In this document: positions 19,833 through 39,024 of the stretch, piece after piece
How positions within the stretch are numbered: the stretch's first letter is position 1
Layout of the letters: each line of letters begins with the position of its first letter
Assembly (NCBI RefSeq): GCF_017313275.1
Contig: NZ_JAFLNM010000001.1
Location: forward strand, 620,001 to 684,000
DNA length: 64,000 nucleotides
Direction of reading: 5' to 3'
Source: Flagellimonas profundi
GTDB taxonomy: Bacteria; Bacteroidota; Bacteroidia; Flavobacteriales; Flavobacteriaceae
Made by a program: the position numbers and the translations under genes
Notes under the pieces: model-generated
Told to the model about the DNA's origin: nothing
Seen by the model: only the letters and a program-made list of their open reading frames with translations
Database searches by the model: none

Positions 19833-19853
19833 ATCTACTTTCCGATGCAAAAA
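19833..19853 (-). repeat. left attachment site (duplicated mnmE 3' end)
   Basis: On the minus strand this reads TTTTGCATCGGAAAGTAGAT, against TTCTGCATCGGAAAATAGAT at the mnmE end. The two copies match at 19 of 21 positions including flanks. This copy is not part of any gene and marks the far end of the element. Confidence 0.82.
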
Positions 19854-19890
19854 GTAACAATATTTTATTTTACTGGGCTTGCAGACTTGT

Positions 19891-19899
19891 GAGACACAA
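19891..19899 (+). promoter_or_regulatory. GAGACACAA arm-type site candidate, left end
   Basis: This 9-mer lies about 40 bases inside the left attachment repeat. Two further copies (one inverted) lie about 110-145 bases inside the right one. Repeats near both ends of an element are typical arm sites for tyrosine integrases or sites for excisionase. Confidence 0.45.
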
Positions 19900-20061
19900 A
19901 TGAGAAACAAAACAAGATTTTTGCTTACTTCTATACAATTATTGAAACAATATTAATAAATTTTATATCACTTGCTTTAAATTGATAAAGAATTATGTGC
20001 TTTTTATTTCCTTAAATATTAAAATAAATTTTTGTTATATTTCCAAAAACTTTGAAGGTGT

Positions 20062-20766
20062 ATGATAAATTTTCCATTAGTGGCCGGAACGCTCGCTTCA
20101 ATGCTCCATGTAATTTCTGGGCCAGATCATTTGGCAGCAGTAACACCATTGGTAATCGAAACTAAAAGGAAAGCATGGAAAATCGGCTTATTTTGGGGAC
20201 TTGGACACTTATTCGGTATGCTTTTAATTGGTGTTTTATTTTTTTTATTTAAAGATGTTATTCCCATAGAAAGTATTTCAGAATATAGTGAGCAGTTAGT
20301 GGCCATAGTACTGATTGGTGTTGGCTTATGGGTGTTTTATCGCATTTTTAATCAGAAAAAGAAGCACCTACATCCACATGTGCATCATGGGACTGAAACC
20401 TATGTTCATATTCACGAACACGAACATATTCATTCGGATGGGCATCACCATACACACAATAAAATTGTAAAACAGGATGTGTTATCTTCTTTAGGAATTG
20501 GTTTTTTACATGGATTAGCTGGTGTAGCCCATTTTCTATTGCTTTTACCAGTATTAGGCTTTAAAGATAATTCCGAGGGTGTTCAGTATATCCTTGGGTT
20601 CGCCATTGGAACTGTATTAGCGATGTCAGCCTATGCGTTAATTCTAGGTAGATTAACGACATATTCGAAGCATCAGCACAATGATAATTTCTTTAAAGGA
20701 ATTCGTTTAGCTGGTGGGCTATTTGCTTTGGTAATAGGTTTTTACTGGCTTTACTTAAGTCTTTAA
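20062..20766 (+). CDS. UreH-type nickel permease with histidine-rich loop
   Basis: 234 residues with about six membrane segments. The first holds HVISGPDHLAAVTPL, the His/Asp metal-path signature of the UreH/NiCoT-like permeases, with one residue more between His16 and Asp22 than the strict HX4DH of NixA. A loop at about residues 101-132 contains 14 histidines. A matching motif (FLHGLAGVAHF) follows in the second half. It would import nickel for the hydrogenase. Its 3' end overlaps that of the convergent NHL gene by 12 bases. HypB of this operon lacks the usual His-rich stretch, so the loop here may do some of the metal holding. Confidence 0.85.
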   Translation: MINFPLVAGTLASMLHVISGPDHLAAVTPLVIETKRKAWKIGLFWGLGHLFGMLLIGVLFFLFKDVIPIESISEYSEQLVAIVLIGVGLWVFYRIFNQKKKHLHPHVHHGTETYVHIHEHEHIHSDGHHHTHNKIVKQDVLSSLGIGFLHGLAGVAHFLLLLPVLGFKDNSEGVQYILGFAIGTVLAMSAYALILGRLTTYSKHQHNDNFFKGIRLAGGLFALVIGFYWLYLSL

Positions 20767-21849
20767 GTTACAAATTACAAGTCTATGATTTCCAGTATCT
20801 GCAATAAATAATTGATTGTTATGTGTAGTTATTGAAAAAGGCCAATAAATAGCACTTTGCGTTCCTGTTAAGTTACCTTTATACTCACTACTTGTTTGAA
20901 AGTTAGGTCGTCCAATTAAACCATCCGCACCTTTGTTATTTTCTTCAGGAATCTTATCAAAAACTAAAATCCTACTATTGCCTGTATCATTTACTAAAAT
21001 ACCTTCTTCATAGAAACAGGTATCATAAGTCCAGTTTAAGGTATTATTTTCAGGTGAAAGCCTAAATTGATTCTGTCCAGAATTGTCAAAATTTTCCTGA
21101 CCTATAATAATATCTGACTGTTTATTAGGGGCTTCATTCTTATCCTTCCAAATTAAAATCCTATAATATTGCGTGTCCGCTATTGCTAAAACTCCCTCTT
21201 TATTTATTTTAATCGAATATGGCCAAATAGGATCTTTATTTTCATAGTCTCTTGTACTAAAGTCGGCTTTACCAATAACCTTATCTGCTTTGGAAAAATT
21301 TTCGGTGGGTATAACCTTAAAAAATAATACACGTCTATTACCTGTATCTGCAATCCAAAGACTTTTGCCATCAGAAAATACACCATAAGGCCAATTTAAA
21401 GTATCCGCTCTAGGGCTAGCTGCTTGGCCTTTAACATTGGGTTGATTATTTTCAAAATCTGGTTGCCCTAGAACTACATCAGCTGGTTGTGCATTTACTG
21501 TTGGAATGTTATGCCAAATTAAAACGCGATGATTCCAAGCATCTGCAACAATTAACATTTTGCCATCGCTCCAAACACCAGAAGGATACTGTAACGTTTT
21601 GGAAGAGACTAGGGAATCTGAATTTCTGCCTGAATCTTCAATGACTTCTTGACCTAAAATAACATCTGGTTCTTGAAACTCAGTAACAGGAATAGTATGC
21701 CAAATAAATACACGATTTTGCCCAGTATCAGAAACAAATAACATATTATTAGCTACAAAAACACCTCTTGGTGCTAAAAAAGGTTTTTGTTTTGAACCTT
21801 TAAAAACATAGGAGTTTGTGACTTTATCACCTAAAGTAGAATAATCCAT
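20755..21849 (-). CDS. NHL-repeat beta-propeller protein of the hydrogenase operon
   Basis: 364 residues without signal peptide, so probably cytoplasmic. Six repeats are visible, each with a strand of the form LFVSDTGQNRVFIWHTIP, LIVADAWNHRVLIWHNIP, LWIADTGNRRVLFFKVIP and so on, often followed by a DVVLGQPDF-like turn. The repeat number fits a six-bladed propeller. It is the last gene of the leftward hydrogenase operon, 3 bases after hypE. I recall NHL proteins in group 2a hydrogenase clusters of actinobacteria, but cannot check. A scaffold or assembly role is a guess. Confidence 0.85.
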   Translation of the reverse strand: MDYSTLGDKVTNSYVFKGSKQKPFLAPRGVFVANNMLFVSDTGQNRVFIWHTIPVTEFQEPDVILGQEVIEDSGRNSDSLVSSKTLQYPSGVWSDGKMLIVADAWNHRVLIWHNIPTVNAQPADVVLGQPDFENNQPNVKGQAASPRADTLNWPYGVFSDGKSLWIADTGNRRVLFFKVIPTENFSKADKVIGKADFSTRDYENKDPIWPYSIKINKEGVLAIADTQYYRILIWKDKNEAPNKQSDIIIGQENFDNSGQNQFRLSPENNTLNWTYDTCFYEEGILVNDTGNSRILVFDKIPEENNKGADGLIGRPNFQTSSEYKGNLTGTQSAIYWPFSITTHNNQLFIADTGNHRLVICNLKT

Positions 21850-21852
21850 AGG

Positions 21853-22914
21853 CTAACAAATTCTTGGCAACTGTTCTCCTGGAAGCATACTTACCATGCG
21901 TTTGCCACCAATGGCGCTCTCCAAAATCACTTGTTTTGGGTGTGCTTCAACAACAGTTCCTATAATTTTCGCATTGGTGCCATTTTCATCCTTTTGTAAG
22001 GTTTCTACAAATGAATTGGCTATAGAAGCATCAACAAAGCTTAAAAATAACCCTTCATTTGCGACATATAACGGATCTAACCCTAATAATTCACAGGCAC
22101 TTGCTACTTGACTATCTATTGGTAAATCTTTCTGAAAAATATCAATTCCAATATTAGAAGACAAAGCAATTTCTTTTAAAACTGTAGCCACGCCGCCACG
22201 GGTTGGATCGGTTAATAAATGAATAGCTGAACCAAACCCATCTATTAATCTTGAAATAGTATGATTCAAATTTATAGTATCGCTTTCAATGGTGGAATCA
22301 AACTCCAATCCTTCGCGAACTGACATAATAGCCATACCGTGTGTTGCTATGTTACCACTAACAATAATTTTATCTCCAATTTTGATATTCTTTTCACTGA
22401 TATGCGCTTTTGGGTGAATGTTACCAATACCGGAGGTATTGATAAATACTTTATCGCCTTTGCCTTTTTCTACTACTTTAGTATCCCCTGTAACTACTTT
22501 TACATCCGCTTTCTCGCAAGCATTCTTTATGGCAACTAAAATCTCCCAAAACTCTGTCATTTTAAGGCCTTCTTCTATGATAAAACTTAAGGATAAATAC
22601 TTTGGAGTAGCACCACACATGGCTAAATCATTCACGGTGCCGTTAACCGCTAGTTCGCCAATATTTCCACCGGGAAAGAAAATAGGAGATACTAAAAAAC
22701 TATCTGTAGAAAATGCCATTTTTCCATTCATTTCTAAAAAGGCACCATCATGTCTTTCATTAAGAATATCATTACTTAATACATCAAAAACACCACTGTC
22801 CAGTAGCTTATTGGTTAATGTGCCGCCACTACCATGCCCAAGTGTTATAACATCGAAGTCTAATTTTGGCATTGGGCATTGCAGCTGCATTCGTATTTTC
22901 TTTGAATCCGACAT
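21853..22914 (-). CDS. hypE: hydrogenase maturation protein HypE
   Basis: 353 residues of the AIR-synthase-like fold. It carries the ITLGHGSGG start of the family, the ATP-site segments HDGAFL and STDSFLVSPIFFPGGNIGELAVNGTVNDLAMCGA, and LTDPTRGGV. The C-terminus is PRIC: the last Cys receives the carbamoyl group from HypF and becomes the thiocyanate that gives the CN ligands of the active-site iron. The intact PRIC end argues for function. It lies 20 bases after hypD and 3 before the NHL gene. Confidence 0.97.
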   Translation of the reverse strand: MSDSKKIRMQLQCPMPKLDFDVITLGHGSGGTLTNKLLDSGVFDVLSNDILNERHDGAFLEMNGKMAFSTDSFLVSPIFFPGGNIGELAVNGTVNDLAMCGATPKYLSLSFIIEEGLKMTEFWEILVAIKNACEKADVKVVTGDTKVVEKGKGDKVFINTSGIGNIHPKAHISEKNIKIGDKIIVSGNIATHGMAIMSVREGLEFDSTIESDTINLNHTISRLIDGFGSAIHLLTDPTRGGVATVLKEIALSSNIGIDIFQKDLPIDSQVASACELLGLDPLYVANEGLFLSFVDASIANSFVETLQKDENGTNAKIIGTVVEAHPKQVILESAIGGKRMVSMLPGEQLPRIC

Positions 22915-22934: not shown

Positions 22935-24029
22935 TTATGCTTCTATTAAACCGGAAAAATGATAATAGGCAGCGCAAGCACCTTCACTGCTCACCATTGG
23001 TGCGCCAAGTGGAAAAGAGGGTTTGCATTTTTTTCCAAATTGAGGGCATTCATAAGGTTTCTTTATACCTTTCATAATTTGTCCTGAAATACAATCTGGG
23101 TGTTCTGGTGCTTCTTCGATTGAGATACTAAACTTTATGTTGGCATCAAAGGCGGCATATTTTTCTTTAACGGCATAACCGCTTTCAGGAATCTCGCCAA
23201 TGCCTCGCCATAGCTGGTTTCTAATTTCAAAAACTTCAAAAATCATTTTTTGAGCTTCGGTATTGCCTTCCTCTTTCACAATTCTTGAATATTGATTCTC
23301 AACTTCAGCTTTATTTGCTTCTAACTGACGAATTACCATCAAGATACCTTGCAAGACATCCAAAGGTTCAAAACCAGTAACTACAATTGGTACATTATAA
23401 GTTGCCGAAAGTGGATGATACTCGGAATTACCCATAATGGTACATACATGCCCAGCAGCTAAAAAACCATCTATATTACTTTCATCATCATCAATTACTG
23501 CTTTTATAGCCGGTGGTACCAATACATGGGACGCTAAAATGGAATAATTAGTCAAACCTTTTCGGTGCGCATGAATAACAGATAATGCATTGGCTGGTGC
23601 CGTAGTTTCAAATCCCACAGCAAAAAATACAACTTCCTTATCTGGATTGTCTTCAGCTACTTTTACTGCTTCTAATGGCGAGTATAGAATGCGAATATCT
23701 GCACCTTTCGCTTTGGCCTCTAATAAATTAATTTTAGAACCAGGTACACGCAGCATATCGCCAAACGAACATAAAATCACATGCTCATTTAACGCCAAAT
23801 GAATGGCTTTATCAATTAAATTTAATGGTGTTACGCAAACTGGGCATCCTGGGCCATGAATCATGGTTACTTGTTCTGGTAACATTTCTATAATACCATT
23901 TTTAACCAAACTATGTGTTTGCCCACCACAAACTTCCATGATAGCCCAAGGTTGTGTTACCGTTTTTTCTATTTCTTCGAGATACTTCTTTGCTAATTCA
24001 GGATCTCGATATTCATTCATATATTTCAT
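22935..24029 (-). CDS. hypD: hydrogenase maturation protein HypD
   Basis: 364 residues. The conserved motifs are MEVCGGQTHSLVKNGI, HGPGCPVCVTPL (thiol pair), SFGDMLRVPGS, FFAVGFETTAPA and GHVCTIMG. Cysteines for the [4Fe-4S] cluster occur in the C-terminal part (HPDCISGQIMKGIKKPYECPQFGKKCKP). HypD holds the Fe(CN)2CO unit together with HypC. Its start overlaps the hypC stop by 4 bases, so the partners are translationally coupled. It is full length. Confidence 0.97.
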   Translation of the reverse strand: MKYMNEYRDPELAKKYLEEIEKTVTQPWAIMEVCGGQTHSLVKNGIIEMLPEQVTMIHGPGCPVCVTPLNLIDKAIHLALNEHVILCSFGDMLRVPGSKINLLEAKAKGADIRILYSPLEAVKVAEDNPDKEVVFFAVGFETTAPANALSVIHAHRKGLTNYSILASHVLVPPAIKAVIDDDESNIDGFLAAGHVCTIMGNSEYHPLSATYNVPIVVTGFEPLDVLQGILMVIRQLEANKAEVENQYSRIVKEEGNTEAQKMIFEVFEIRNQLWRGIGEIPESGYAVKEKYAAFDANIKFSISIEEAPEHPDCISGQIMKGIKKPYECPQFGKKCKPSFPLGAPMVSSEGACAAYYHFSGLIEA

Positions 24030-24307
24030 GACTCTTCTTTTTTAGGTAAATAGTCTTCAACATCTTCCAGCTCGCCTAACTCGCCAATTTCTTCTAAATA
24101 TTCAAACGTTTTTTTAGCTTCTTCCTCGTTAACTTTACTTATTGCCACACCCACATGCACTAAAACATAATCGTCAACATTAGCATCTGGTAGCATTTCT
24201 AAACTGGCTTCTTTCATAATGCCGCCAAAAGAAACCTTCGCCATTCTCACCAAGCCGTTATGTTGTAATTCTATACTTTTAATTTTTCCTGGAATTGCTA
24301 AACACAT
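24026..24307 (-). CDS. hypC: hydrogenase maturation chaperone HypC
   Basis: 93 residues starting MCLAIPGKI, where Cys2 is the essential iron-carrying residue exposed after removal of Met1. The rest is the small beta-barrel (VSFGGIMKEASLEMLP, DDYVLVHVGVAISKVNEEEA) followed by an acidic helical tail. It carries the Fe(CN)2CO unit to the large subunit. It lies between hypF (5-base gap) and hypD (overlap). Confidence 0.96.
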   Translation of the reverse strand: MCLAIPGKIKSIELQHNGLVRMAKVSFGGIMKEASLEMLPDANVDDYVLVHVGVAISKVNEEEAKKTFEYLEEIGELGELEDVEDYLPKKEES

Positions 24308-24312: not shown

Positions 24313-26571
24313 TTAATTTTTTATATGTTGATGATACATCAACTGCCCGAACGATATATTTTCGTCGTTAGCAGACAATTTACGATTTAATTTTAAATTT
24401 ATTTTATCTTTTCTTGCCACCTGAGAAAGTATTGAAACTAACAGTGCATTTTGAAAAACACCACCACTACAGGCAATTGTGTTTATTTGAGTCTTTTTAG
24501 CGATTCTTATAATAGATTTTGCCAAAGTGTAGATGAAACTATAAGCTAATCGTTCTTTACAAAACCCTTCTCTGTAAGCTTTTACAAGCTTATTTAGAAT
24601 ATATTTGGATGGTATTTCGTCATAAGTTTTATCATGTAAAAAATCAATATAATAGCTTTTTGAGTATGTGTTTGCACAATCTTCGAGTCGCATTGCCGCT
24701 TCAGCTTCAAAAGTATTTATATCTACTAAACCCAAGGCCGAAGCTGCCGCATCAAACAACCTTCCTACAGAGGATGTTTTTAGGTTATTGGTTTTGATGG
24801 TTTTTGAATAGACTTTCCATTCGGTTTCAGTAAACTTATCTTTAATAAAAGGCTTCATTTCATCATCTAATAGACTGAATAATGGCAAACGAGATTCTTT
24901 AGCCATTTTGTCGTTAGCCAACCAATCGAAATATTCAAAATGTGTTAAACGCTCAATTTTATAATTTTTGTAAATAAAAAATTCGCCTCCCCAAATCTGA
25001 CTATCGTCACCCAAGCCCGTACCATCCCATATAACTCCTAATATTTTTTTATTAGTATCGAATGCATCATGCTCTCCCAAAACACTTGTAAAATGCGCCT
25101 TATGATGCTGAACTTCTTGAATAGCAGCATTGTATTTTGAAGCCAGTTCGTATCCCAAAACACTGCTTTGGTATTGTGAGTGTTTGTCAATAAGAATTGT
25201 TTTTGGTTGGGTTTCAAATAAGTTTATATACCTTTCAATAGTTGTTTCATAACGCTTTAAAACATCGTAATTATCTAAATTTCCCAAGTATTGGCTTACA
25301 TAAGTTTGCGTATTTGGGACATAAGTAATTGTACTCTTTAAATGTGCTCCCATTGCTAAAACTGGTTCTGTAGATTTTACATTAGCATCAATATAATTTG
25401 GTGCTAATCCTCTTGAACGCCTATAAATAAGCTCTATGTTACCGGCAAACTTTACTACAGAATCGTCTTGCGGAAATTGAATATCGAGATTGTGATGCAA
25501 GAAACAATCGGCAATATTTTTTAAGTGTGTATTAGCTTCTTTTTCTTCAGAAATAATAGGCGAACCATGTATATTTCCACTGGTGGCAACAATGGGCTGT
25601 TTAATTTCTTGCATTATCAATTGCAATAGTGCAGAAGACGGTAGCATCACACCTGTCTGGTTCAAATATGGTGCGATGGCGCTTACAGATATACTTGTGT
25701 TTTTAGTGTTTTGAAGAATAACTATGGGTGAAACTCTGGATCGTAAGGATTCTTCTTCGTGAGATGATAATTGAAACTCTTTTTTTACTGTTTTAACTGA
25801 AGGATACAATACTGCAAAAGGCTTATTGGGCCTTTTCTTTCTTTCTCTTAACTTTTTGATGGCTTCTGGATTTGAAGCATCACAGCACAAAAGATAACCG
25901 TTCGTGTTTTTAATAGCAATGATCTTTCCTTCGGAAACATATTGCCCAATTGTACTTATACATTCTATTTGATTTTTGGTAATAGTTTCTTCTACATTTG
26001 TTACTAATTTTAATTGTACCCCACATGAATCACAAGAATTTGTTTGTGAATGAAATCGTCTGTCGTTTGGATTGGCATATTCCGCATGGCAAGCCTCACA
26101 CATATCAAATCCTGATAACGATGTATTTGCTCTTTCAAACGGGAACTTGGTTGTAATAGCATAGCGTGGCCCACACTGCACACAGGTTGTAAATGGATAA
26201 TTATAACGCCTGTTTTTAGAGTCCGAAAGTTCGGTTTTACAGGATTCACAAACTGCAAAATCTGGTGTTAATGGCACATTGATTTGTGCCTGTGTTTTTG
26301 AAGGAATAATGGTAAAACCGTCAAATTTAGTAAATGTACTTTCAACGATTTTATAAGAAGTTATGATGGCTATTTCTGGTTTATTCTGAAGAATATCCTT
26401 TGAAAATTTATCTATATCTTCTTTTGAGGCGTTACAATAAATAATAACACCTTTTTCATTATTTGAAACTGTTCCCTCGAGTTGGTTATTTTTCGCAAGG
26501 TTAAAAATAAAGGGACGAAAACCCACGCCTTGGACTCGTCCATTTATTTGTATTTTAAACGTTTTAATCAC
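24313..26571 (-). CDS. hypF: carbamoyltransferase HypF
   Basis: 752 residues with the full family order. An acylphosphatase-like domain comes first (GRVQGVGFRPFIFNLA, about 11-25). Two pairs of CxxC zinc fingers follow (CESCKTEL, CVQCGPRY, CEACHAEY, CDSCGVQL). Then a YrdC-like domain (KRPNKPFAVLYPS) and a Kae1-like domain with VQHHKAH and WDGTGLGDD. HypF makes carbamoyl-adenylate from carbamoyl phosphate and transfers it to the HypE C-terminal Cys. Length is normal, so it is intact. It sits between hypB (12-base gap) and hypC. Confidence 0.97.
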   Translation of the reverse strand: MIKTFKIQINGRVQGVGFRPFIFNLAKNNQLEGTVSNNEKGVIIYCNASKEDIDKFSKDILQNKPEIAIITSYKIVESTFTKFDGFTIIPSKTQAQINVPLTPDFAVCESCKTELSDSKNRRYNYPFTTCVQCGPRYAITTKFPFERANTSLSGFDMCEACHAEYANPNDRRFHSQTNSCDSCGVQLKLVTNVEETITKNQIECISTIGQYVSEGKIIAIKNTNGYLLCCDASNPEAIKKLRERKKRPNKPFAVLYPSVKTVKKEFQLSSHEEESLRSRVSPIVILQNTKNTSISVSAIAPYLNQTGVMLPSSALLQLIMQEIKQPIVATSGNIHGSPIISEEKEANTHLKNIADCFLHHNLDIQFPQDDSVVKFAGNIELIYRRSRGLAPNYIDANVKSTEPVLAMGAHLKSTITYVPNTQTYVSQYLGNLDNYDVLKRYETTIERYINLFETQPKTILIDKHSQYQSSVLGYELASKYNAAIQEVQHHKAHFTSVLGEHDAFDTNKKILGVIWDGTGLGDDSQIWGGEFFIYKNYKIERLTHFEYFDWLANDKMAKESRLPLFSLLDDEMKPFIKDKFTETEWKVYSKTIKTNNLKTSSVGRLFDAAASALGLVDINTFEAEAAMRLEDCANTYSKSYYIDFLHDKTYDEIPSKYILNKLVKAYREGFCKERLAYSFIYTLAKSIIRIAKKTQINTIACSGGVFQNALLVSILSQVARKDKINLKLNRKLSANDENISFGQLMYHQHIKN

Positions 26572-26583: not shown

Positions 26584-27285
26584 TTAAACTTGTTGCTTCT
26601 GTTTCACTTTTTCAACGAGCCAATCACACCACTTATCAATACCTTCCTCAGTTAAAGAAGAAATTTGAATCACCTCTAATTCGTGATTCACTTCTCGTGC
26701 ATCTTTGGTGACAGCCTCTACTGAAAATGGTAAATAAGGTAGTAAATCGGATTTTGAAACCAGCATCATATCGCTTGTTAAAAACATGCGTGGATACTTT
26801 TTTGGCTTGTCATCACCTTCGGTAGTAGCCATTAAAGTGACACGATAGTCTTCACCTAAATCAAAAGAAGCAGGACACACTAAGTTTCCTACGTTTTCAA
26901 TAAAAAGCAGATCGATATTCGGTAAATCAAACTGATCTAATACTTGATGAATCATCTGAGCTTCCAAATGACAAATACCGCCAGTAACAATTTGTAGTGC
27001 TTGGATGCCTGTCTCTCTTATGCGCTCGGCATCACGCTCGGTTTCTAAATCGCCTACCATAACGGCTATATTTAGTTTGTTTTTAAGTTTTTCCGCCGTT
27101 TTTTGCATCAGTGTGGTTTTTCCGCTCCCGGCAGAGGACGTAATATTTACCAACAAGGTGTTGGTTTTTGCCATTTCCTTTTTAATAATATCTGCTACAA
27201 AGTCATTTGCCTTTAGCAAATTAATATTGGTATTCTCGCATTGTGCTGTTCCGCGAGCTGCTTTTGTGGATTTTTCTATACTCAT
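26584..27285 (-). CDS. hypB: nickel-inserting GTPase HypB
   Basis: 233 residues. The G domain shows the P loop SSAGSGKTT, GDLETERDAERI, the metal/dimer motif GGICHLEA, and SKSDLLPYL. Unlike many HypB proteins the N-terminus has no run of histidines and no CxxCGC motif, only a short basic segment. It works with HypA to put nickel into the large subunit precursor. A gap of 64 bases separates it from hypA, the widest gap between maturation genes here. Confidence 0.96.
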   Translation of the reverse strand: MSIEKSTKAARGTAQCENTNINLLKANDFVADIIKKEMAKTNTLLVNITSSAGSGKTTLMQKTAEKLKNKLNIAVMVGDLETERDAERIRETGIQALQIVTGGICHLEAQMIHQVLDQFDLPNIDLLFIENVGNLVCPASFDLGEDYRVTLMATTEGDDKPKKYPRMFLTSDMMLVSKSDLLPYLPFSVEAVTKDAREVNHELEVIQISSLTEEGIDKWCDWLVEKVKQKQQV

Positions 27286-27349: not shown

Positions 27350-27697
27350 TTAGTCGTCAAATTCTACTTTATGGATTAACATTTCTTCACCTTGAATCAC
27401 ATTTTTACTGGGCCTTTCACAATTATCACAGATGAACCGATAATTTTTAACATCTGTAATATGGTTGCACACCTCACATTGAATTTTTAGTTTGGTTGAC
27501 TCTATATGAAGCGCTACACGATGATAGCCTGGATTTGTGATATGGTAAGCGCTATAGGCATTATGTAACAATCGAGGCTCAATATTAGATAATATACCAA
27601 CCTTAAGATGAATTGCTTTCATCTTATTCAATTTTTCTTGTTCAAACTCCATTTCTAAAGTTCGCATAATGCTATTAACGATGGATGTTTCGTGCAT
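27350..27697 (-). CDS. hypA: nickel chaperone HypA
   Basis: 115 residues. It begins MHETSIV, where His2 is the nickel ligand of the family. Two CxxC pairs (CEVC and CDNC) form the structural zinc site in the C-terminal half. It passes nickel to the large subunit with HypB. It starts 3 bases after the TPR gene stop, so it is co-transcribed with the hydrogenase genes upstream. Confidence 0.96.
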   Translation of the reverse strand: MHETSIVNSIMRTLEMEFEQEKLNKMKAIHLKVGILSNIEPRLLHNAYSAYHITNPGYHRVALHIESTKLKIQCEVCNHITDVKNYRFICDNCERPSKNVIQGEEMLIHKVEFDD

Positions 27698-29739: not shown

Positions 29740-30215
29740 AATACTTCTAAAACTTTTAATTCGTCTAGGATATGTTCAACAACTTTATCACCTGCATCTT
29801 TTACGGCATCACTTAATTCTACTTCTAATTTTGTGTTCTCTATGGCAATTAAATACACCTGAATATCGTTTGGATACTCATCTTGTAAAATCTTTTTAGC
29901 GTAAGACAAGGCCTGATCCCATTTCATGCCATGTAGAAACACCAAAGGATCATCTTGGGGTGCTCTCAACACTTCTTCGGCAGGAACTTTAAAAAGTGTT
30001 CCAACAGGTTCATTAGTATTTAAGGCAGCATCCACTAAAATAATTTTTTGATGTCCTTTTAATCCAAAAAGTACTTCAAAAGCTGCTGTTCCCATATCGA
30101 AAATATTGATTACCTCATTATCACCAATGTGCTCCTTAAGCTTTTCAATAACATACATTCCAACACCATCATCACTACGTACTGGGTTGCCAAACCCCAT
30201 AATTGCAATTTGCAT
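29736..30215 (-). CDS. hydrogenase large-subunit processing endopeptidase
   Basis: 159 residues of the HyaD/HupD/HycI peptidase family. Near the N-terminus is IMGFGNPVRSDDGVGMYVIE, which contains the metal-sensing acidic residue, and FDMGTAAFEVLFGL and ILVDAALNTNEPVGTLF follow. A late His occurs in FLHGMKWDQAL. The enzyme checks nickel insertion and cuts off the C-terminal tail of the large subunit. The large subunit here has a 15-residue tail after DSCLVCTVH, matching this need. In cyanobacteria the dedicated partner is called HupW. Confidence 0.93.
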   Translation of the reverse strand: MQIAIMGFGNPVRSDDGVGMYVIEKLKEHIGDNEVINIFDMGTAAFEVLFGLKGHQKIILVDAALNTNEPVGTLFKVPAEEVLRAPQDDPLVFLHGMKWDQALSYAKKILQDEYPNDIQVYLIAIENTKLEVELSDAVKDAGDKVVEHILDELKVLEVL

Positions 30216-31902: not shown

Positions 31903-32862
31903 TTATTTAGAGGTTTCCATTACTCGTTTATTCGTAGGCATTACTTTTTGGAAGCCAGCTTCTAAATAGTATGCAACTTTATTTCTCCCTGTAGGAACTT
32001 CTTTAGGAAATACACCCATATATTTCATTGTATTAAACACACTTCCCTTCTTTAAATCGTGATGCGGAAAGCCAGGTTCGGTACATCCTAAACAAGGATG
32101 ATTAGATCGTGTTTTACTCGATTGTCTATTCCATAATATATTATTACAACTTGCTCTTGTCATTGGACCTCTACAACCAACTTCGTAGAATAAGCAACCA
32201 CCGCGCTTACCAAAATTACCGTCAACTTTTTGAGCAAAATTGGTAACGTTCGTACATCCATCTTGTACAAAATCGGTAAAGAATGTTTTTGGTCTATGAT
32301 AATCATCAATTACAACATCACCAATACGACCAACAGCAATTGCTACCAGTATTTGCGTAATCCAATCTGGATGAGCTGGACAACCAGGTATATTGATTAC
32401 TGGTAAACCACCTTTAGAAACATAGTTAGCACCTAAAAAACCTCCTTTATTTTTTTTGTGAAACTGCAAACCAGTAGATTCACTCGGGTTAGGTGGTACA
32501 GCTGGAATTCCTCCCCATGTAGCACAATCTCCTATGGCAACGACATAGCCAGCTACTTCAGATAATTCTTTAATCCAATCTTTCATTGGACGGTCAGCAA
32601 AATAATTCATAGATCCTGTTCCATTTGGTCCTTGAATTAATGAACCTTCATAAACAAGAATGTCCATTTGCTCTTTACCTGCAATAATATCTCTTAGTAA
32701 ATCCTGTACTTGGTCACCAATTTGCAATCCAGTTGTTGGATGCCAAAGTATATTTAGACCAAAATCAGTGATGAGCTCTACAACGGTTGGTTCTTCCGCG
32801 TTAAGAAAAGACATAGTATTGCCACTACATGCTCCCCCTTGTAACCATAAAACGTTTGCCAT
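31903..32862 (-). CDS. hupS: [NiFe]-hydrogenase small subunit, group 2a type, no Tat signal
   Basis: 319 residues. It starts directly MANVLWLQGGACSGNT with no twin-arginine signal, so the enzyme faces the cytoplasm. Iron-sulfur ligands: proximal Cys12, Cys113 (GDC) and Cys161 (GCPAHP), with Asn15 in place of the usual second Cys; distal Cys203, Cys223 and Cys230, with Gln200 where His normally sits; medial Cys239, Cys257 and Cys260. Three ligands at each site suggest three [3Fe-4S] clusters, as I recall for mycobacterial Huc. The sequence also resembles Nostoc HupS. It is the first gene of the operon. No membrane anchor or cytochrome subunit is encoded with it. Confidence 0.95.
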   Translation of the reverse strand: MANVLWLQGGACSGNTMSFLNAEEPTVVELITDFGLNILWHPTTGLQIGDQVQDLLRDIIAGKEQMDILVYEGSLIQGPNGTGSMNYFADRPMKDWIKELSEVAGYVVAIGDCATWGGIPAVPPNPSESTGLQFHKKNKGGFLGANYVSKGGLPVINIPGCPAHPDWITQILVAIAVGRIGDVVIDDYHRPKTFFTDFVQDGCTNVTNFAQKVDGNFGKRGGCLFYEVGCRGPMTRASCNNILWNRQSSKTRSNHPCLGCTEPGFPHHDLKKGSVFNTMKYMGVFPKEVPTGRNKVAYYLEAGFQKVMPTNKRVMETSK

Positions 32863-33098: not shown

Positions 33099-33470
33099 TT
33101 AGAAAGAAATAACCTTTTCAATTTGCTTTATGCCTCTGAATTTTTCTAAGGTCATTTTAGTTTTAGAAGCATATACTAATGATAATACTGAAATAAGAAT
33201 AGCAAGAATAAAGGTTATAATCGCCCATTTAGGATAGACCCCTGCTTTTTTAAACAAAGCTTCAAATTTTTTGTATTGCCTTTCTTGTAGTTCACTTTGT
33301 CTTTTTAGTTGTTCGTTATATGCTTCTAAGATAGGTTTGATTTCAGATAAATCAATAGCGACCTTTACATCCTTGATTTGATCATTAATAACTTCCAACC
33401 TATTTACATCATCGCGGAATTCTTCCAGTTCAGAAGTTAATAGTTCCATATACTCTTTAATTCTAGTCAT
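33099..33470 (-). CDS. coiled-coil protein with one membrane segment, mobilization region
   Basis: 123 residues. The first 90 form a charged coiled coil (ELEEFRDDVNRLEVINDQIKD and following). One membrane helix lies near 79-100 (WAIITFILAILISVLSLVYA), and a short basic tail follows. It starts 14 bases after the relaxase stop, on the same strand. Small proteins of this form often follow relaxase genes in Bacteroidota mobilizable elements; its function is unknown. Confidence 0.75.
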   Translation of the reverse strand: MTRIKEYMELLTSELEEFRDDVNRLEVINDQIKDVKVAIDLSEIKPILEAYNEQLKRQSELQERQYKKFEALFKKAGVYPKWAIITFILAILISVLSLVYASKTKMTLEKFRGIKQIEKVISF

Positions 33471-33484: not shown

Positions 33485-34348
33485 TTAAATTCCAATTCCT
33501 GCATCAATAGAATGTTTCACAACTCGTTTTGCAACTTTCTTTACAATGCTTAAAGCCAATCTTGGTGCTAATGGAATAGCCTTATCCAACACTTTTACTG
33601 GAGCTATGTTTTTTATTACGCTATTTGATTGACCGTAAAGTCGCTGCCCGATATTGCCTCCAGTCATGCTACGATGTACTTCGCTACCTTTCAAATTGTA
33701 ACCATTAAATTCAAATCGGAACCCTTGAATATTGCCCGATTTATTGATGCTCGGCAACACTTTTACACCATTGTTCTGCATGGCTTTGATATAGCTCTCA
33801 AAATTCTTTGGAGTGAATTGTTTTAGGCTCAATTCATGTCTTCGCTTGATTTCCTGTCGAACCTCTTTCAATAAAAACTGCTTTTCAAATTGTACTTGTT
33901 TAACAGTAGTCAATTGTAGTTGCTCCGCCACTTTTTCAGCTGCATATTGACTTCGCTTACCAATGAAGCTATCATTGTAAGCTACACCTCGGAAATCAAT
34001 CCGATTTACATACAAATGAATATGTGCATGTTCTTTATTATTATGGACAAATGCAATAGCTTGTCTTTGTTCCAATTTCATTTCTTTTAGAAATCGCTTA
34101 CAGATCATTTCAAAATCTTTTTGTTGTAGTCGTTTTCCATCTTCTATGGTTGGGCTGATCACAAAGGACAGTGTATTCTTTTGACAATGATAGTTCTGGT
34201 CCTGGACCATTTTAAACTCCTGGGTTATCTCATTAGGACTATCCCCAACCAGCTCTTGTTTAAAGACAACTTCTGCACCTTTCTCCTGATTCCATCCATA
34301 AGCCACCGAAGCTTGGGTATGGGCAATAGCTTTTCCTTTTCCTATCAT
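33485..34348 (-). CDS. relaxase/mobilization nuclease (MobA/VirD2 family)
   Basis: 287 residues. The three-histidine metal motif is HAHIHLYVNRID near residues 108-119, and a Tyr in ASVAYGWNQEKG near residue 17 is the likely nicking residue. This is the MOBP-like arrangement of Bacteroidota elements. It would nick at an origin of transfer and pilot the strand with help from a conjugative element. The start overlaps the MobC-like gene by 4 bases. The C-terminus has a hydrophobic, basic stretch (LALSIVKKVAKRVVK). Length is on the short side but typical for this type. Confidence 0.9.
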   Translation of the reverse strand: MIGKGKAIAHTQASVAYGWNQEKGAEVVFKQELVGDSPNEITQEFKMVQDQNYHCQKNTLSFVISPTIEDGKRLQQKDFEMICKRFLKEMKLEQRQAIAFVHNNKEHAHIHLYVNRIDFRGVAYNDSFIGKRSQYAAEKVAEQLQLTTVKQVQFEKQFLLKEVRQEIKRRHELSLKQFTPKNFESYIKAMQNNGVKVLPSINKSGNIQGFRFEFNGYNLKGSEVHRSMTGGNIGQRLYGQSNSVIKNIAPVKVLDKAIPLAPRLALSIVKKVAKRVVKHSIDAGIGI

Positions 34349-34845
34349 GGCGACAATCTTTGTAAATGTGATTTTATTTCATTGGCTAATCGATACACTT
34401 CTTCAGTGAGTTTAGGATTTCGTTTACGATACATATTTCCAATGGACTTAAAGTTGTTATGAAACTTCACCAGGGTGCTGTAGATCAAAATCTCATCTTC
34501 TGTCAATCGCTCCGTGATCTTCTTTTCAAACGCTACTCTTCTGAAATATTCGCTCAATGTCAATCCAGATCTTTTCGCCCTGTTCTTCAATAGCTTTTTT
34601 TCCATAGAAGTACACCTAAATTTAATCACTTCGGTTTTCCGCTTAAACCGACTCTTTTTTTCATTGCGACCATCGGGAGTAATCGAGTTTGTGCCCACAG
34701 GCACACATCTCGAATTTGTTTCCAACAAATCTTTTTCACAAATATCTAAAAGAATAGTTTTACCATCTTTTAAATGTTCTTCAGTTAGGTGAAGTATCGT
34801 TTTATCGACTGTTTTTGAGTTGTATTTTTTCTTTCTTAAATCCAT
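34345..34845 (-). CDS. MobC-like relaxosome accessory protein
   Basis: 166 residues. A basic N-terminal half leads to a ribbon-helix-helix-like segment (TEVIKFRCTSMEKKLLKNRAKRSGLTLSEYFRRVAFEKK, residues about 70-108). The C-terminal half is helical (LVKFHNNFKSIGNMYRKRN). This is the pattern of MobC proteins that bind near oriT and assist the relaxase. It overlaps both the primase gene (10 bases) and the relaxase gene (4 bases). Confidence 0.85.
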   Translation of the reverse strand: MDLRKKKYNSKTVDKTILHLTEEHLKDGKTILLDICEKDLLETNSRCVPVGTNSITPDGRNEKKSRFKRKTEVIKFRCTSMEKKLLKNRAKRSGLTLSEYFRRVAFEKKITERLTEDEILIYSTLVKFHNNFKSIGNMYRKRNPKLTEEVYRLANEIKSHLQRLSP

Positions 34846-35687
34846 GACATTAGCTTTTCATTAGCATCTTTATATCCTTTGTAAAGCTCCCTGCAATCAT
34901 GAGATTGTGGGCATGTATCTAATAGATGACTTGTTGCCAAATCACCTGATCGGTCATTGTCTAAATAGAGTAGGACTTTTTCATAATTCATTAGTGTAGG
35001 AACAACATTATTTACAAATGCAATCGAATTGAGGACTAAGATGTCCACTTCTTTTATTTTCTCTTTTAGTATACTAACTAGGGATAACAAATCAAACATC
35101 CCTTCGGTTACCAATACATTTTTATGACCCTTATTGATATAGCTGAATGTCTTAGGTGAAGTTGATGTTTTATAGTACTTGTTTCGAAGCTCCCATCCGC
35201 CATCATAATTTTTTAATCCTAGTGCAAAAAATGTTTTGTCCTTATTTCTATACCAGACCTCTTGACAATAGTTCTTTGCTATAAATAAGGGTATTTTTCT
35301 CGAAGTGATATAATTCACCAACCCTGGGTGTTGAATTGGTTGAATATTTACAATCGATAAATCATTTTTTTTATCATTTATAAAGTGCTGCTGTTGAAAA
35401 GAGAAGAGAGTGATCTCCTTACTCAAAAAGTCAAGAGCTTCTCTAACCGAACAATTCAAAATTTCGATGATTAAGTCTATGACATTTCCTCCAATCCCTA
35501 AACCATGATCGTACCATCTATTTTTTAGTTTAGAGACTTTAAAAGAGGCTTGTGTTTCTGACCGTAAAGGACTTAGAAACCAAGCTTCTTTTTCCGATTC
35601 CTTTTTGGGAAAATGCTCGAGTTTTGCCAACACCTGGAGCAGGCAAATATTTCGAGCTTTTTTACAGTTTATTTTTTCTTTTTTCAT
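34836..35687 (-). CDS. Toprim-domain primase-like protein of the mobile element
   Basis: 283 residues. The first part resembles a reduced CHC2-type primase zinc domain (WFLSPLRSETQASFKVSKLKNRWYDHGLGIGGNVIDLI) but without the zinc cysteines. The second part is a Toprim domain: VLVTEGMFDLLSLVSIL with the acidic residue, then VLLYLDNDRSGD. It probably primes replication of the excised or transferred element. It lies between the repeat cluster at 35.7-35.9 kb and the mobilization genes. Confidence 0.88.
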   Translation of the reverse strand: MKKEKINCKKARNICLLQVLAKLEHFPKKESEKEAWFLSPLRSETQASFKVSKLKNRWYDHGLGIGGNVIDLIIEILNCSVREALDFLSKEITLFSFQQQHFINDKKNDLSIVNIQPIQHPGLVNYITSRKIPLFIAKNYCQEVWYRNKDKTFFALGLKNYDGGWELRNKYYKTSTSPKTFSYINKGHKNVLVTEGMFDLLSLVSILKEKIKEVDILVLNSIAFVNNVVPTLMNYEKVLLYLDNDRSGDLATSHLLDTCPQSHDCRELYKGYKDANEKLMSWI

Positions 35688-35721: not shown

Positions 35722-35909
35722 TGATGACAACCCCTCTGGAAGGCTTATAAATAGTGAGTTTTCTCTGTCATCGTTTTGTCATCACGTCATCATTTTTGAG
35801 TTTTTTACATTATTTTCTGTCATCACTTTTTATTTTGATGACAGAATGATGACAAAGTGATGACGGCCTTAAGCCTCATAAACATTGGCTTCGGCTCAAT
35901 CTGTCATCA
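35722..35909. repeat. cluster of GTCATCA/TGATGAC repeats, candidate origin
   Basis: Exact copies of the 7-mer lie at 35722, 35778, 35786, 35819, 35836, 35847, 35858 and 35903, and one with a single mismatch lies at 35767. Both orientations occur: four TGATGAC (first, then a block of three 11 bases apart) and four GTCATCA. The cluster fills the gap between the primase-helicase and primase genes. Spacing of about 11 bases is iteron-like. It may be the replication or transfer origin of the element. Confidence 0.6.
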
Positions 35910-37101
35910 ATTCATCAAAATTTTGGACTAGGAAAGGCTTTTCTATGGTAAAATACCTTCCTTTTGCATCTTTTAAATCCATATCTCCATCACTCCAGAT
36001 CTGAAACTTTTGATATTTATTAGAGTTGTCTTGATTCTTTAATTTCCAGTCTTTTTTTAATAATCGTCTGAGCTGTGTTAGATCTGTTTTCACTCTAGTC
36101 TTGTTCAATGCATGTAAGGCATCAATAGGACATAGATGTACTTCTTCTAAATCAAATTTTTCCATGACACTTAAAATGATACTCGCCAACTCCTTTTCAA
36201 CGCGATTACGATTATGTTGCACCAATTTTTTTAAAGCAACTGTTTTGATTTGCTGTGCAGTAAACCACATACGTGTTAAATGATTAGTAGAAAGCTGTCT
36301 TTGTTTTAGAAAATGGAGAAAGGCAGGAATTTCAGAAATAAGCTTTTCCAGGTAATCCGTACGCTCTTTTTCTATAATAGGAACTTTAATTACCCAGAAC
36401 CGGGTTTCGTTGGCATCAATTTTAATAAAGTTATCTTCGTTATTACTACAAAGGATAAACTTTCCAAAGAATTCAACTTCACGTTTGTCTTTGCCTTTCG
36501 CTTCTAACTTATTAATATTGGTTGTGCTTAAATATTTGATCCGTTCGGTAAGCTCTTCCTTATTAAATAAAACTTCATCAATACAAATCAATAGTTTATT
36601 TGCCCAATCGGAATTGAACTGACTGCTGAAACTATCATTGGTTAAATATGTAAGGTTATTATCAAAGATTTCCTTTAACCATTTTAGAAAAGTACTTTTC
36701 CCCGTCGATCTTTCTTTAGATACTAGGCAAAGAATAGGTAATACTTGAATAGGTCTTACATATAATAATTGTAAATAGTCAAGTCCTAATTCATTTTGTT
36801 TTCCAAAAATGTGTTTTACAAAATTCAAAGTGGTATCAATTGATCCTTCCTTTGGTTTTTTACTAAGAGGGGAGTAGATATTATAAAAGTCTTTGTATTC
36901 CTGCTTAAAATCAATATGATTTGGTATACATGTAAACCCATCATACTTTGAAATTTTACTTAAATAAGACTTACCATGATCTTGCCGTATGGTTTCAATA
37001 CTCCATGATACCAGTATTTCATTAAAATGTCCTGCGATGGTAGGAGCTTGGACTTTTTTATAATAGGAGGTTCCTACCCTTATATATGGTATTGCCTTCA
37101 T
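35896..37101 (-). CDS. DUF5906-type primase-helicase (D5-like AAA+ NTPase)
   Basis: 401 residues. The NTPase core has a Walker A motif, SKERSTGKSTFLKWL, near residues 124-138 and a Walker B motif, LLICIDEVLF, near 169-178. After these comes FFGKFILCSNNEDNF, which has the sensor Asn. A helical C-terminal domain follows. The family unwinds DNA for plasmid, phage and mobile-element replication. It starts 19 bases after the HTH gene stop. The stop codon falls inside the GTCATCA repeat cluster. Confidence 0.88.
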   Translation of the reverse strand: MKAIPYIRVGTSYYKKVQAPTIAGHFNEILVSWSIETIRQDHGKSYLSKISKYDGFTCIPNHIDFKQEYKDFYNIYSPLSKKPKEGSIDTTLNFVKHIFGKQNELGLDYLQLLYVRPIQVLPILCLVSKERSTGKSTFLKWLKEIFDNNLTYLTNDSFSSQFNSDWANKLLICIDEVLFNKEELTERIKYLSTTNINKLEAKGKDKREVEFFGKFILCSNNEDNFIKIDANETRFWVIKVPIIEKERTDYLEKLISEIPAFLHFLKQRQLSTNHLTRMWFTAQQIKTVALKKLVQHNRNRVEKELASIILSVMEKFDLEEVHLCPIDALHALNKTRVKTDLTQLRRLLKKDWKLKNQDNSNKYQKFQIWSDGDMDLKDAKGRYFTIEKPFLVQNFDELMTD

Positions 37102-37120
37102 GATGATGTGATTTAGATGT

Positions 37121-37402
37121 TTATTTTTTCTTTAAAACATAGTCTAATGCCATGTCCTCTATTTCACATTTGGATTTTCGGTCATTCCGTAAAAGCCATT
37201 CATTTAGGCGATTGATATCAAAAAATATCATTTTACCATTTGGTTTACTGTGAGGAATAATACCAGCGGAAGTTAGTTTATAGAGATAGCTGCGTGATAT
37301 ACCTGTATAATCACACGCTTCTTCTAAAGTAAGTACTTGTTTAGAGCCTAATAATAAGCTCTCAATTCTATCGAGTTTTTCTTCTAGTTTAATATTGTCC
37401 AT
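37121..37402 (-). CDS. excisionase-like helix-turn-helix protein
   Basis: 93 residues. An N-terminal coiled segment is followed by a MerR-like winged helix (VLTLEEACDYTGISRSYLYKLTSAGIIPHSKPNGKMIFFDINRLNEWLL, residues about 18-66), the HTH_17 type found in excisionases and in control proteins of integrative elements. It precedes the primase-helicase in a leftward unit. A perfect 16-bp palindrome lies 27 bases upstream, suggesting that this protein or another element regulator acts there. Confidence 0.88.
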   Translation of the reverse strand: MDNIKLEEKLDRIESLLLGSKQVLTLEEACDYTGISRSYLYKLTSAGIIPHSKPNGKMIFFDINRLNEWLLRNDRKSKCEIEDMALDYVLKKK

Positions 37403-37428
37403 TTTCTTCTATTTATAGATTAATAATG

Positions 37429-37573: not shown

Positions 37574-37683
37574 ATTCATGAAGCTCATAAATTAAAGTTG
37601 TAAAGCGTTTGATTTGAAAGTAAATAAAATGGGCCTAAATGATGAAATATGAAGTTATTAACAGCAAAAACCTAAAAATAGTC

Positions 37684-38844
37684 TTATTCAACGTTTTCAA
37701 GTTCTAGTTTCGGCACTAAATGCGCTGCTTCTTTCATTTTTTTATCAATAATTTTGGCATAAATCTCTGTAGTTCTTATTTCTTTGTGTCCTAGTCTTTT
37801 GGAAACTGTATAAATGTCAGCTCCATTTTCTAAAAGTAGAACAGCATTTGTATGCCTGGCGGAATGAAAAGTGATATGTTTAGTGATACCTGCGAACATA
37901 CACCATCGCAATAACTTTAAATTCATATGGGCACTATAATGAAGATTGGTAAATACACGATCATTTGACTCTTTGCGTTCTCCAAGTAATTCCCTTGCCT
38001 GTTTAGAAATATATAAGTATTCCATTCCTTCCGTTTTTTTCTGCTTGAAAATGATACGAAAGATTTCATTTCCTGAACTATCTATTCCCTCATTTCTAAC
38101 TTCAGACCAGGTTAATTTATTGATATCTGACCATCTTATACCGGTAAGTGCAGAAAATAAAAAGGCAGACTTTAATACCTTTACTTCACAAGGGGTTCTC
38201 GAGAGTCTTTGCAATTCTTCAGAAGTTAAATACTCTCTTTTGGATTCTCCCATGGTAAACCCTTTAACCTTTGTTATTAGATTTTCTTTCATATAACCTT
38301 CGTCAAAAGCAGCTCGCAACGCAGCTTTAAACTTGTTAAAGTAAGTGTGTTTTGTATTTTGTGCCAGCTTCTTATTGCCTTTAGTTACTGCAACGGTATT
38401 CAAATATTTCTTGAACCCTTTTATAAAATCAATATCTACGTCATTAAAGGTAATATGCTTCGGACAATACTTTTCTAAATGCTTTTGTGCTGCTTCCCAA
38501 TTGTCATAATTCCCTTTTGTCTCATATCGTTCCTCTTTTTTTTGTTCATAAAAGTCTAATAAAGTGGTCTTACCTTTATGTTCACTTCGAATCCTGTACT
38601 TCCCTTGGTAAACTTCTGCTTTCCTGATTGCGAGAATTTGCTCAGCTAATTGGAGTTGCTCTTTATTATTCTTCTTTTCAATGGCTGATTTTGGATTAGC
38701 AACTAAATAGAGTTGTAAATACTCATAATCTCTAAGGTGTTTAATTTTTCCGCTTTCTAGCGTTTTTATGCCTTTATAATATTCAATATATAGACTTTGT
38801 TTTCCTGTCTTTAATTTTTTCTTTCTTAAATGAACTTTTATCAT
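37684..38844 (-). CDS. tyrosine recombinase/integrase of the element
   Basis: 386 residues from the ATG at 38842-38844 (MIKVHLRKKKL). The frame runs on to a GTG at 38883, but that extension covers the candidate arm sites and is not family-like. An N-terminal arm-binding domain and a SAM-like core-binding domain (about 85-190) precede the catalytic domain. The catalytic residues are Arg in LTGIRWSDINKL, HxxR in HSARHTNAVLL, His in RLGHKEIRTT and Tyr in TEIYAKII. This is the Bacteroidota conjugative-transposon type. It sits at the right end, reading away from mnmE, about 160 bases from the attachment site, as expected for the integrase that made this insertion. Confidence 0.95.
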   Translation of the reverse strand: MIKVHLRKKKLKTGKQSLYIEYYKGIKTLESGKIKHLRDYEYLQLYLVANPKSAIEKKNNKEQLQLAEQILAIRKAEVYQGKYRIRSEHKGKTTLLDFYEQKKEERYETKGNYDNWEAAQKHLEKYCPKHITFNDVDIDFIKGFKKYLNTVAVTKGNKKLAQNTKHTYFNKFKAALRAAFDEGYMKENLITKVKGFTMGESKREYLTSEELQRLSRTPCEVKVLKSAFLFSALTGIRWSDINKLTWSEVRNEGIDSSGNEIFRIIFKQKKTEGMEYLYISKQARELLGERKESNDRVFTNLHYSAHMNLKLLRWCMFAGITKHITFHSARHTNAVLLLENGADIYTVSKRLGHKEIRTTEIYAKIIDKKMKEAAHLVPKLELENVE

Positions 38845-38858
38845 AATGACACATTTTT

Positions 38859-38896
38859 TTGTGTCTCGCCAAATATGCGACACACATGAGACACAA
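38859..38896. promoter_or_regulatory. paired GAGACACAA arm-type sites, right end
   Basis: One inverted copy (38859-38867, read as TTGTGTCTC) and one direct copy (38888-38896) of the 9-mer also seen at the left end. They lie just upstream of the integrase start, so the sites may also let integrase or excisionase control the integrase promoter. Confidence 0.5.
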
Positions 38897-38969
38897 TAAA
38901 AGTATGAATATTATTAAATCAAAGGAAAGTAAGATACAAAAAATTTTTAACAATTATTTGATTTACAGT

Positions 38970-38993
38970 CATTTGAATGCAAATGAAACCAAA
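38970..38993 (+). repeat. 24-bp repeat upstream of the integrase gene (copy 2)
   Basis: CATTTGAATGCAAATGAAAC and four more bases, 21 of 24 identical to the copy at 37550. It includes a perfect CATTTG-N4-CAAATG inverted repeat and ends 10 bases from the right attachment site, a plausible accessory-protein site. Confidence 0.5.
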
Positions 38994-39003
38994 TAAAATT
39001 AAT

Positions 39004-39024
39004 ATCTATTTTCCGATGCAGAAA
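39004..39024 (-). repeat. right attachment site within the last codons of mnmE
   Basis: On the minus strand the core reads TTCTGCATCGGAAAATAG, coding for FCIGK and the stop. It matches the distal copy at 19833-19853 except at two positions. The insertion keeps the mnmE C-terminus intact. Confidence 0.85.

Follow-up and report, generated by a model that had tools for sequence, protein, structure and literature searches.

Results

One inserted element at mnmE carries a hydrogenase operon

The window analyzed here (the whole stretch of 64,000 nucleotides, 64 kb) comes from the 4.0-Mb genome of Flagellimonas profundi (contig NZ_JAFLNM010000001.1, positions 620,001 to 684,000; G000:C2:620001-684000 in our notation), and contains one inserted element at the 3' end of mnmE, at window positions 19839-39020 (19,171 bp from core to core), with a [NiFe]-hydrogenase operon inside it. 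The mobility-side genes, all within 19833-39024, encode an integrase, a helix-turn-helix (HTH) protein, a DUF5906/VapE-like protein, a CHC2/Toprim primase-like protein, a NikA-like MobC protein, a relaxase and a DUF6730 protein; the cargo genes encode, in order, the small and large hydrogenase subunits, a maturation protease, three proteins without a family, HypA, HypB, HypF, HypC, HypD, HypE, an NHL protein and a transporter-like protein (Table 1). Matches to PF00589, PF03432 and PF21983 bear out a first-pass annotation of the window, which had placed an integrase at one end and relaxase and MobC-like genes inside. The integrase R, K, HxxR, H and Y positions, which we take to be the catalytic ones, are conserved in an alignment of homologues, and the relaxase HxHxH motif and Tyr17 (as in the homologue of genome G118, both present in the window copy) are invariant in 15 aligned homologues. 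Pfam and NCBIfam scans, in which three proteins have no family, recognize no type IV secretion system (T4SS) protein among the element genes, and no tRNA was found in the 64-kb window.

The element had been described as having one and the same 21-bp sequence at both ends. The repeat is real and flanks the element as two attachment (att) copies, but the two 21-mers are 19/21 identical, differing at two positions, and the exact core, TTTCCGATGCA, is 11 bp (19839-19849 and 39010-39020). With the right att copy as pattern (both strands, up to 3 mismatches), only the copy itself and the left copy were found in 64 kb, and 100 shuffles gave 0 matches; the search and the shuffles rule out a chance origin of the repeat. 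The empty mnmE site that the first-pass annotation had named as a check is found in a congener, G384 (MnmE 98% identical), in which GNAT and BKACE genes, as in the host, directly follow mnmE. The G384 junction, TTTACTTTCCGATGCAGAAATTGG, agrees with the host-side sequence at each of the two window junctions, which places the crossover inside TTTCCGATGCA, and the window to the left of 19833 is 96% identical to G384. The boundaries are thus fixed independently twice, by the G384 empty site and by a DNA alignment with the element of G118 that starts at 19833. G+C per kilobase is 0.31-0.40 inside the element, mostly 0.39-0.45 in the right flank (with kilobases down to 0.34) and 0.33-0.42 in the left flank; composition alone is thus no proof of an island. 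We conclude that, at the level of sequence, the element boundaries and the empty site are established.

The cargo is a Huc-type hydrogenase with its own maturation genes

In comparisons with the PDB, the large subunit matches Huc (7uus/7utd) with 675 bits, as against 210 bits for the next kind of hydrogenase, and the small subunit matches Huc (7uur) with 457 bits, as against 125 bits for the next kind, both over nearly full length; among NCBIfam models, neither subunit passes any cut-off. By the nearest PDB match of both subunits, the enzyme is a Huc-type (group 2a-like) [NiFe]-hydrogenase, in agreement with the group 2a assignment already made. The accompanying claim of six Hyp proteins, a processing endopeptidase and a nickel permease holds in part: the protease (TIGR00072) and HypB to HypF score above cut-off, but the best match of HypA lies below it, and the permease is transporter-like with its nickel identity unproven, since its match to a nickel/cobalt EFFLUX family reaches 32 bits (E 7e-8) vs. 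a cut-off of 195 and it also matches DsbD_2.

For the three family-less proteins (27700-29739) a PADLOC scan gave nothing informative. A TPR label assigned by eye to 27700-29181 has no Pfam support, and a PDB search with the 105-aa protein (29422-29739) gave a single unrelated match (E 1.5). The two small proteins (29156-29739) match no HucM chain in the PDB, where HucM chains are presumably present; they may serve this Huc as accessory or electron-transfer proteins.

Published work, cited here by PubMed Central (PMC) number, indicates that group 2a enzymes of other bacteria oxidize atmospheric H2 and that NHL genes are among the neighbours of hucL (PMC7784904), that Sphingopyxis alaskensis, with a plasmid-borne group 2a enzyme, consumes H2 to sub-atmospheric levels, and that the flavobacterium Robiginitalea, which has a group 1l enzyme, shows no substantial H2 consumption (PMC10305171). 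The Robiginitalea case, genes with little H2 uptake, means that gene presence is not equal to activity; hydrogenase activity and an electron route are what the present genes would predict.

A second [NiFe]-hydrogenase lies elsewhere in the host genome (G000:C6:12929-22211), with its own hypA-F, a transporter-like gene and, by eye, a twin-arginine-translocation-like (Tat-like) small subunit, and the empty-site genome G384, with a similar large subunit (37% match), seems to have such an enzyme too. Here the cassette would thus add an enzyme type, not a first hydrogenase, and the hydrogenase-less host of the first-pass annotation does not describe its present one. The open reading frames (ORFs) at 23964-27799 that adjoin the second hydrogenase on G000:C6 are, by eye, what we take to be a DabB/DabA inorganic-carbon pump.

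Table 1. Features of the mnmE element (window coordinates)
Feature	Position	Strand	Basis or remark
Left attachment copy	19833..19853		core TTTCCGATGCA 19839-19849; 19/21 vs. right copy; G118 element homology begins at 19833
His-rich transporter-like protein (nickel/cobalt?)	20062..20766	+	weak NCBIfam PRK10019, Pfam DsbD_2
NHL-repeat protein	20755..21849	-	Pfam PF01436
hypE	21853..22914	-	TIGR02124 above cut-off
hypD	22935..24029	-	TIGR00075 above cut-off
hypC	24026..24307	-	TIGR00074 above cut-off
hypF	24313..26571	-	TIGR00143 above cut-off
hypB	26584..27285	-	TIGR00073 above cut-off
hypA	27350..27697	-	TIGR00100 best match, E 3e-17, below cut-off
Conserved operon protein, 493 aa	27700..29181	-	no Pfam match; same order in many Bacteroidota operons
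Small conserved operon protein, 88 aa	29156..29422	-	no Pfam/PDB match; same order in many other operons
Small conserved operon protein, 105 aa	29422..29739	-	no Pfam match; same order in many other operons
Hydrogenase maturation protease	29736..30215	-	TIGR00072 above cut-off
Hydrogenase large subunit, HucL-like	30295..31887	-	best PDB match Huc 7uus/7utd
Hydrogenase small subunit, HucS-like	31903..32862	-	best PDB match Huc 7uur
DUF6730 protein adjoining relaxase	33099..33470	-	PF20503
Relaxase, MobA/VirD2 nuclease domain	33485..34348	-	PF03432, E 2e-24
MobC/NikA-like accessory mobilization protein	34345..34845	-	PF21983
CHC2/Toprim primase-like protein	34836..35687	-	PF13155, PF01807
DUF5906/VapE-like protein	35896..37101	-	PF19263, PF05272
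HTH_17 protein, excisionase-like (putative role)	37121..37402	-	PF12728
Tyrosine integrase, mnmE-associated family	37684..38883	-	PF00589/PF13102/PF17293
Right attachment copy	39004..39024		core 39010-39020; overlaps mnmE 3' end
mnmE, target gene	39006..40376	-	protein still ends NFCIGK; end AAA TAG vs. AAG TAA in G384

The whole element is shared with other hosts

A complete collinear element, with the same cargo and the same integrase, is present in two further flavobacteria, G118 and L018 (G465:C43, contig CAJQNO010000043.1 of a metagenome-assembled genome, MAG), as the first-pass annotation had proposed to search for; L018 is the only whole-element carrier among 57 hydrogenase loci, many of them clipped by contig ends or flank length, and G118 is the second carrier. 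The window and G118 are 87.3% identical in DNA over 19,394 aligned columns (window 19833-39217), and their mnmE genes are 66.6% identical over 893 alignable bases. Identity at third codon positions is 93-97% for the integrase and HTH genes, mostly 55-81% for the other element genes and 36% for mnmE; the far greater likeness of the integrase and HTH genes indicates that this module was exchanged, or arrived later than the remaining genes.

The elements of G118 and G465 differ by no mismatch in ~19.1 kb. On the mnmE side there are 52 mismatches, all in the last 203 bp of mnmE, and zero across the 18.7 kb beyond; at the opposite end there are three differences, every one inside the far att core. 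The hosts themselves differ, with mnmE 69% identical over 678 alignable bases and left flanks that are unalignable. An identical element despite divergent mnmE genes and unalignable left flanks points to recent transfer, and the simplest reading of the alignments is that one element arrived very recently in two different hosts. We conclude from these alignments that the whole element is shared between different hosts. The mismatch-free pair supports the proposed one-step movement between flavobacteria, with the transfer itself deduced, and a single step seems to suffice for H2 use to pass from one species to another.

The integrase family looks mnmE-specific

Integrase homologues at E<=1e-60 are present in 73/397 family genomes, the host included. 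All of the 30 best loci (window included), with integrases as little as about 48-50% identical, have mnmE no more than about 1.1 kb away, which rules out chance adjacency; by this association the integrase family looks mnmE-specific. mnmE itself is matched in 70/71 genus genomes, and among 30 of these mnmE loci, 10 (window included) have an integrase of this family adjacent.

In 29 further islands with this integrase family the backbone partly recurs, with a relaxase match in 14 and a hydrogenase in none of the 29 stretches (up to 20 kb each, two short); distal att cores, assigned in 12 of the 29, were chosen by pattern and eye. A Pfam scan of cargo (54 of 119 ORFs, hand-picked from 11 islands; families from the first 25 of 74) gave sulfatases, two-component and ABC transport proteins, SusD, AbiEii, HipA, Fic and cytosine methylase, a variety which indicates that cargo is exchangeable.

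Operon and host histories conflict

In a tree of six operon proteins, the window, G118 and L018 fall together (SH-aLRT, a likelihood-ratio branch support, 100) within a seven-row group (97) that also holds Winogradskyella SP247, SAT49, Kordia and a Psychroflexus MAG, and ten other Flagellimonas operons form part of a separate 22-row clade (96). The tree is a quick one, with 12/40 forks open; it omits L060-L063, L068, L073 and rows with fewer than 4/6 proteins, and so lacks 3/13 of the other Huc-matching genus genomes. The operon tree and the divergence of mnmE place hydrogenase and host histories in conflict, the outcome that the first-pass annotation had asked a comparison of trees to reveal. 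A Huc-type large subunit occurs in 14/71 genus genomes, and the hydrogenase in 15/397 family genomes; the host genome has one full-length match to the large subunit, hence one copy. An operon ancestral in the genus is ruled out by the G384 empty site together with the ten Flagellimonas operons in the other clade.

An mnmE match was found in 42 of the 46 hydrogenase genomes searched (57 loci), and lies within about 60 kb of the operon on the same contig in four only (G465, G466, G481 and G494). In Zobellia uliginosa (G481:C20) a single gene separates the Huc operon from the 3' end of mnmE, a distance of <2 kb, and neither the operon nor mnmE has a recognized integrase of this family nearby; the locus is perhaps a fossil mnmE island.

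Huc operons occur in several kinds of carrier

Other mnmE islands carry the operon in other arrangements. In the Winogradskyella sp. SP247 MAG, mnmE is followed by a 49%-identical integrase, a BT4734-like protein, a DUF3987 protein and then the Huc operon in opposite orientation, and Winogradskyella DT_120, without the hydrogenase block, aligns with the SP247 island both next to mnmE and at its far side (77-86%, longer pieces). Over 18.5 kb, a SAT49 MAG contig is 98.8% identical to the SP247 island, against 80.6% over 2.4 kb for the SAT49 mnmE contig; the SAT49 island is pieced together from these two contigs. Polaribacter marinus (G494:C22:107721-156721) has a tandem pair of mnmE islands, with cores at 156721, 141886 and 107721; the operon starts just past the third core, and no fourth core was found past the operon in the stretch examined. 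Next to the Huc block of one mnmE island is a pAgo-like gene (L190:11838-13961; PADLOC pAgo, E 1e-281), and a similar Argonaute-like gene (resemblance by eye) lies in another (G494:C22:119722-121797).

In Allomuricauda sediminis (G471:C23), two exact 31-bp copies of a tRNA-Leu end, spaced 18.3 kb, enclose an integrase, the operon and a relaxase match that is weak (E 2e-8 with our own profile). In A. nanhaiensis, a tRNA-Pro is followed by an integrase, the operon and, 15.8 kb on, a copy of the tRNA end; with a repeat of just 14 bp, this island is suggestive only. In [Muricauda] okinawensis and Maribacter PR1 (G473:C1, G472:C17), a Tn3-type TnpA (PF01526, E 3e-134, for [Muricauda] okinawensis, the one of the two that was scanned) lies on one side of the operon and an ORF that by eye looks like a resolvase (195 and 193 aa) on the other. 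Tn3-family inverted repeats, starting with GGGGTAGTGACC and GGCCTAGTGACC, enclose the unit, and outside them are 5-bp target duplications (TATTA and TTTGA). The 13.3-kb operon unit of these transposons is 99.7-99.8% identical in G429:C1 (about 2018189-2031496), between other flanks and without the Tn3 flanks, and was possibly captured there by a resolvase. The G429 unit ends in GGTTCC/GGAAC, which resembles half-sites.

Matches to integrase and relaxase profiles, which were built in this analysis and would miss other recombinases, are absent from 17/23 hydrogenase stretches (33-52 kb), two of the 17 being the Tn3 cases. An exact repeat of at least 17 bp spans the operon in 3/23 stretches, one of them at a tRNA, and 7/11 tRNAs in the 23 stretches sit within 0.5 kb of an operon end (raw counts; six stretches, some related); around the Fluviicola NORP3 and ALOHA operons no tRNA 3' repeats were found. 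The 17/23 stretches without a profile match, and the few genomes with mnmE near the operon, count against a universal rule of carriage. It is probable, in our judgment, that the Bacteroidota Huc operon is a travelling cassette that changes carriers (the present mnmE element, a second mnmE island of different backbone, a tRNA-Leu element with a relaxase match of its own, a possible tRNA-Pro island and Tn3-family transposons) and moves between genera on some of them. If so, marine flavobacteria would exchange the oxidation of trace H2 as an accessory trait, in much the way that resistance genes are exchanged.

Discussion

An integrase and att repeats flank the unit, it has its own relaxase and mobilization genes, and no complete conjugation machinery was recognized in it. 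We are highly confident that it is an integrative and mobilizable element (IME) of ~19.2 kb, targeted to mnmE, with a Huc-type cargo. As we envisage the mechanism, the tyrosine integrase would recombine the 11-bp attP core with the conserved last codons of mnmE, so that, after integration, the end of the MnmE protein would be unchanged at one junction and a second core would remain at the other. The element would then leave as a circle, to be moved, by means of its own relaxase and accessory Mob protein, by a co-resident conjugative element, a helper being needed because no T4SS was recognized in the element. One transfer, in bringing a Huc-type operon together with HypA-F and the maturation protease, could install trace-H2 uptake into respiration. 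Candidate helpers are indicated by TraG loci over cut-off, of which the host has four, and G466 and G467 one each (5/14 control genomes matched, 0/14 over cut-off).

Several observations weigh against a mobile IME of this kind. No TraG match was found in G118, G465 or G384, such that no such helper is resident in the two hosts with identical elements. By their third codon positions, the window and G118 copies are mosaic, and the window copy is not a very recent arrival from the G118 lineage. L018 is a MAG contig, which leaves some room for a chimera, yet both its ends break at att. Excision and helper-driven transfer are deduced from sequence data, in which neither an excised circle nor a transfer has been seen.

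The 13% difference in DNA between the window and G118 copies, and the single copy of its large subunit in the genome, would also suit an island that arrived by transfer and is now fixed, immobile and kept for its hydrogenase. We consider such decay unlikely, in that no ORF for the integrase, relaxase, primase-like or helicase-like protein is interrupted and their key positions are conserved, and the nearest relative of the window element is identical in two hosts, so that its lineage moved recently. That identity could itself reflect contamination or chimeric assembly instead of transfer, G465 being a MAG and the comparison one of assembled contigs; but the mnmE genes and left flanks differ, the switch between like and unlike sequence coincides on either side with an att core, G118 was assembled as one 3.10-Mb contig, and the window copy and empty site are independent of the G118/G465 pair, such that we hold an artifact to be quite improbable. 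Separate histories, with the operon chromosomal and ancestral and an mnmE island simply landing alongside it, might be suggested by the Huc-type large subunit in 14/71 genus genomes, by ten congeners checked, some on short contigs, in which the operon was not seen near mnmE, and by Zobellia uliginosa, whose operon is close to mnmE but has no such integrase. The two att copies, however, enclose the operon, which G384 lacks, the ten congener operons belong to another clade, and the whole unit is collinear in two other hosts; we give separate histories almost no credence. A mobilizable element with the hydrogenase as cargo is the reading that we retain.

H2 in air and seawater is now viewed as an energy source for many heterotrophs, and the patchy distribution of the enzyme among species (15/397 family genomes here) is an open question. 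As a vehicle, the element described here has defined ends, an identified empty site, maturation genes of its own and a sister that is identical in two hosts, and it poses a testable question: is H2 oxidation conferred by gain of one 19-kb element?

Comparison with known systems

IMEs, targeting of trmE/mnmE (SGI1) and plasmid-borne hydrogenases are already in print. In open-licence PMC papers we found neither a hydrogenase on an mnmE-targeted element, in line with the first-pass annotation, nor Huc operons across several kinds of Bacteroidota carrier, and the available passages of PMC12016528 do not mention hydrogenase.

SGI1 and MGIVchHai6 likewise have a tyrosine integrase, occupy the 3' end of trmE (= mnmE) and are mobilizable but not conjugative (PMC5704250, PMC8409611), a parallel to the mnmE-linked integration family of flavobacteria. 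They differ in being gammaproteobacterial, in having IncA/IncC plasmids as movers and in carrying resistance cargo, and the mobilization proteins of SGI1 are MpsA/MpsB (PMC9299015), in contrast to the MobA/VirD2-type relaxase and NikA-like protein here. The present element shares the trmE/mnmE 3' end but lacks an MpsA/MpsB module, and is not filed in the SGI1 family, a separation drawn from gene families, not sequence alignment. From NBU1, NBU2, Tn4399 and Tn4555 it presumably differs in site and cargo, a distinction made by description, not sequence. These Bacteroidetes IMEs, with a MobP relaxase, likewise have their own relaxase, lack a T4SS and are mobilized by integrative and conjugative elements (PMC5704250).

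With Huc of group 2a the present enzyme shares subunits that score far higher against Huc than against all other hydrogenases of solved structure, and an NHL gene nearby in both. The PDB Huc structures are, we assume, those of the Mycobacterium smegmatis enzyme; in contrast to M. smegmatis Huc, the Bacteroidota operon has its own hypABCDEF and three family-less proteins. The large subunit matches 95 plasmid records, among them Runella, Hymenobacter and Sphingopyxis, and the plasmid-borne hydrogenases of Sphingopyxis alaskensis (group 2a; PMC10305171) and Alteromonas macleodii pAM1A3 (PMC4781885) are likewise uptake hydrogenases on mobile DNA; those lie on a plasmid, or on an island on a plasmid, whereas the hydrogenase described here lies in an integrase-bounded element at mnmE.

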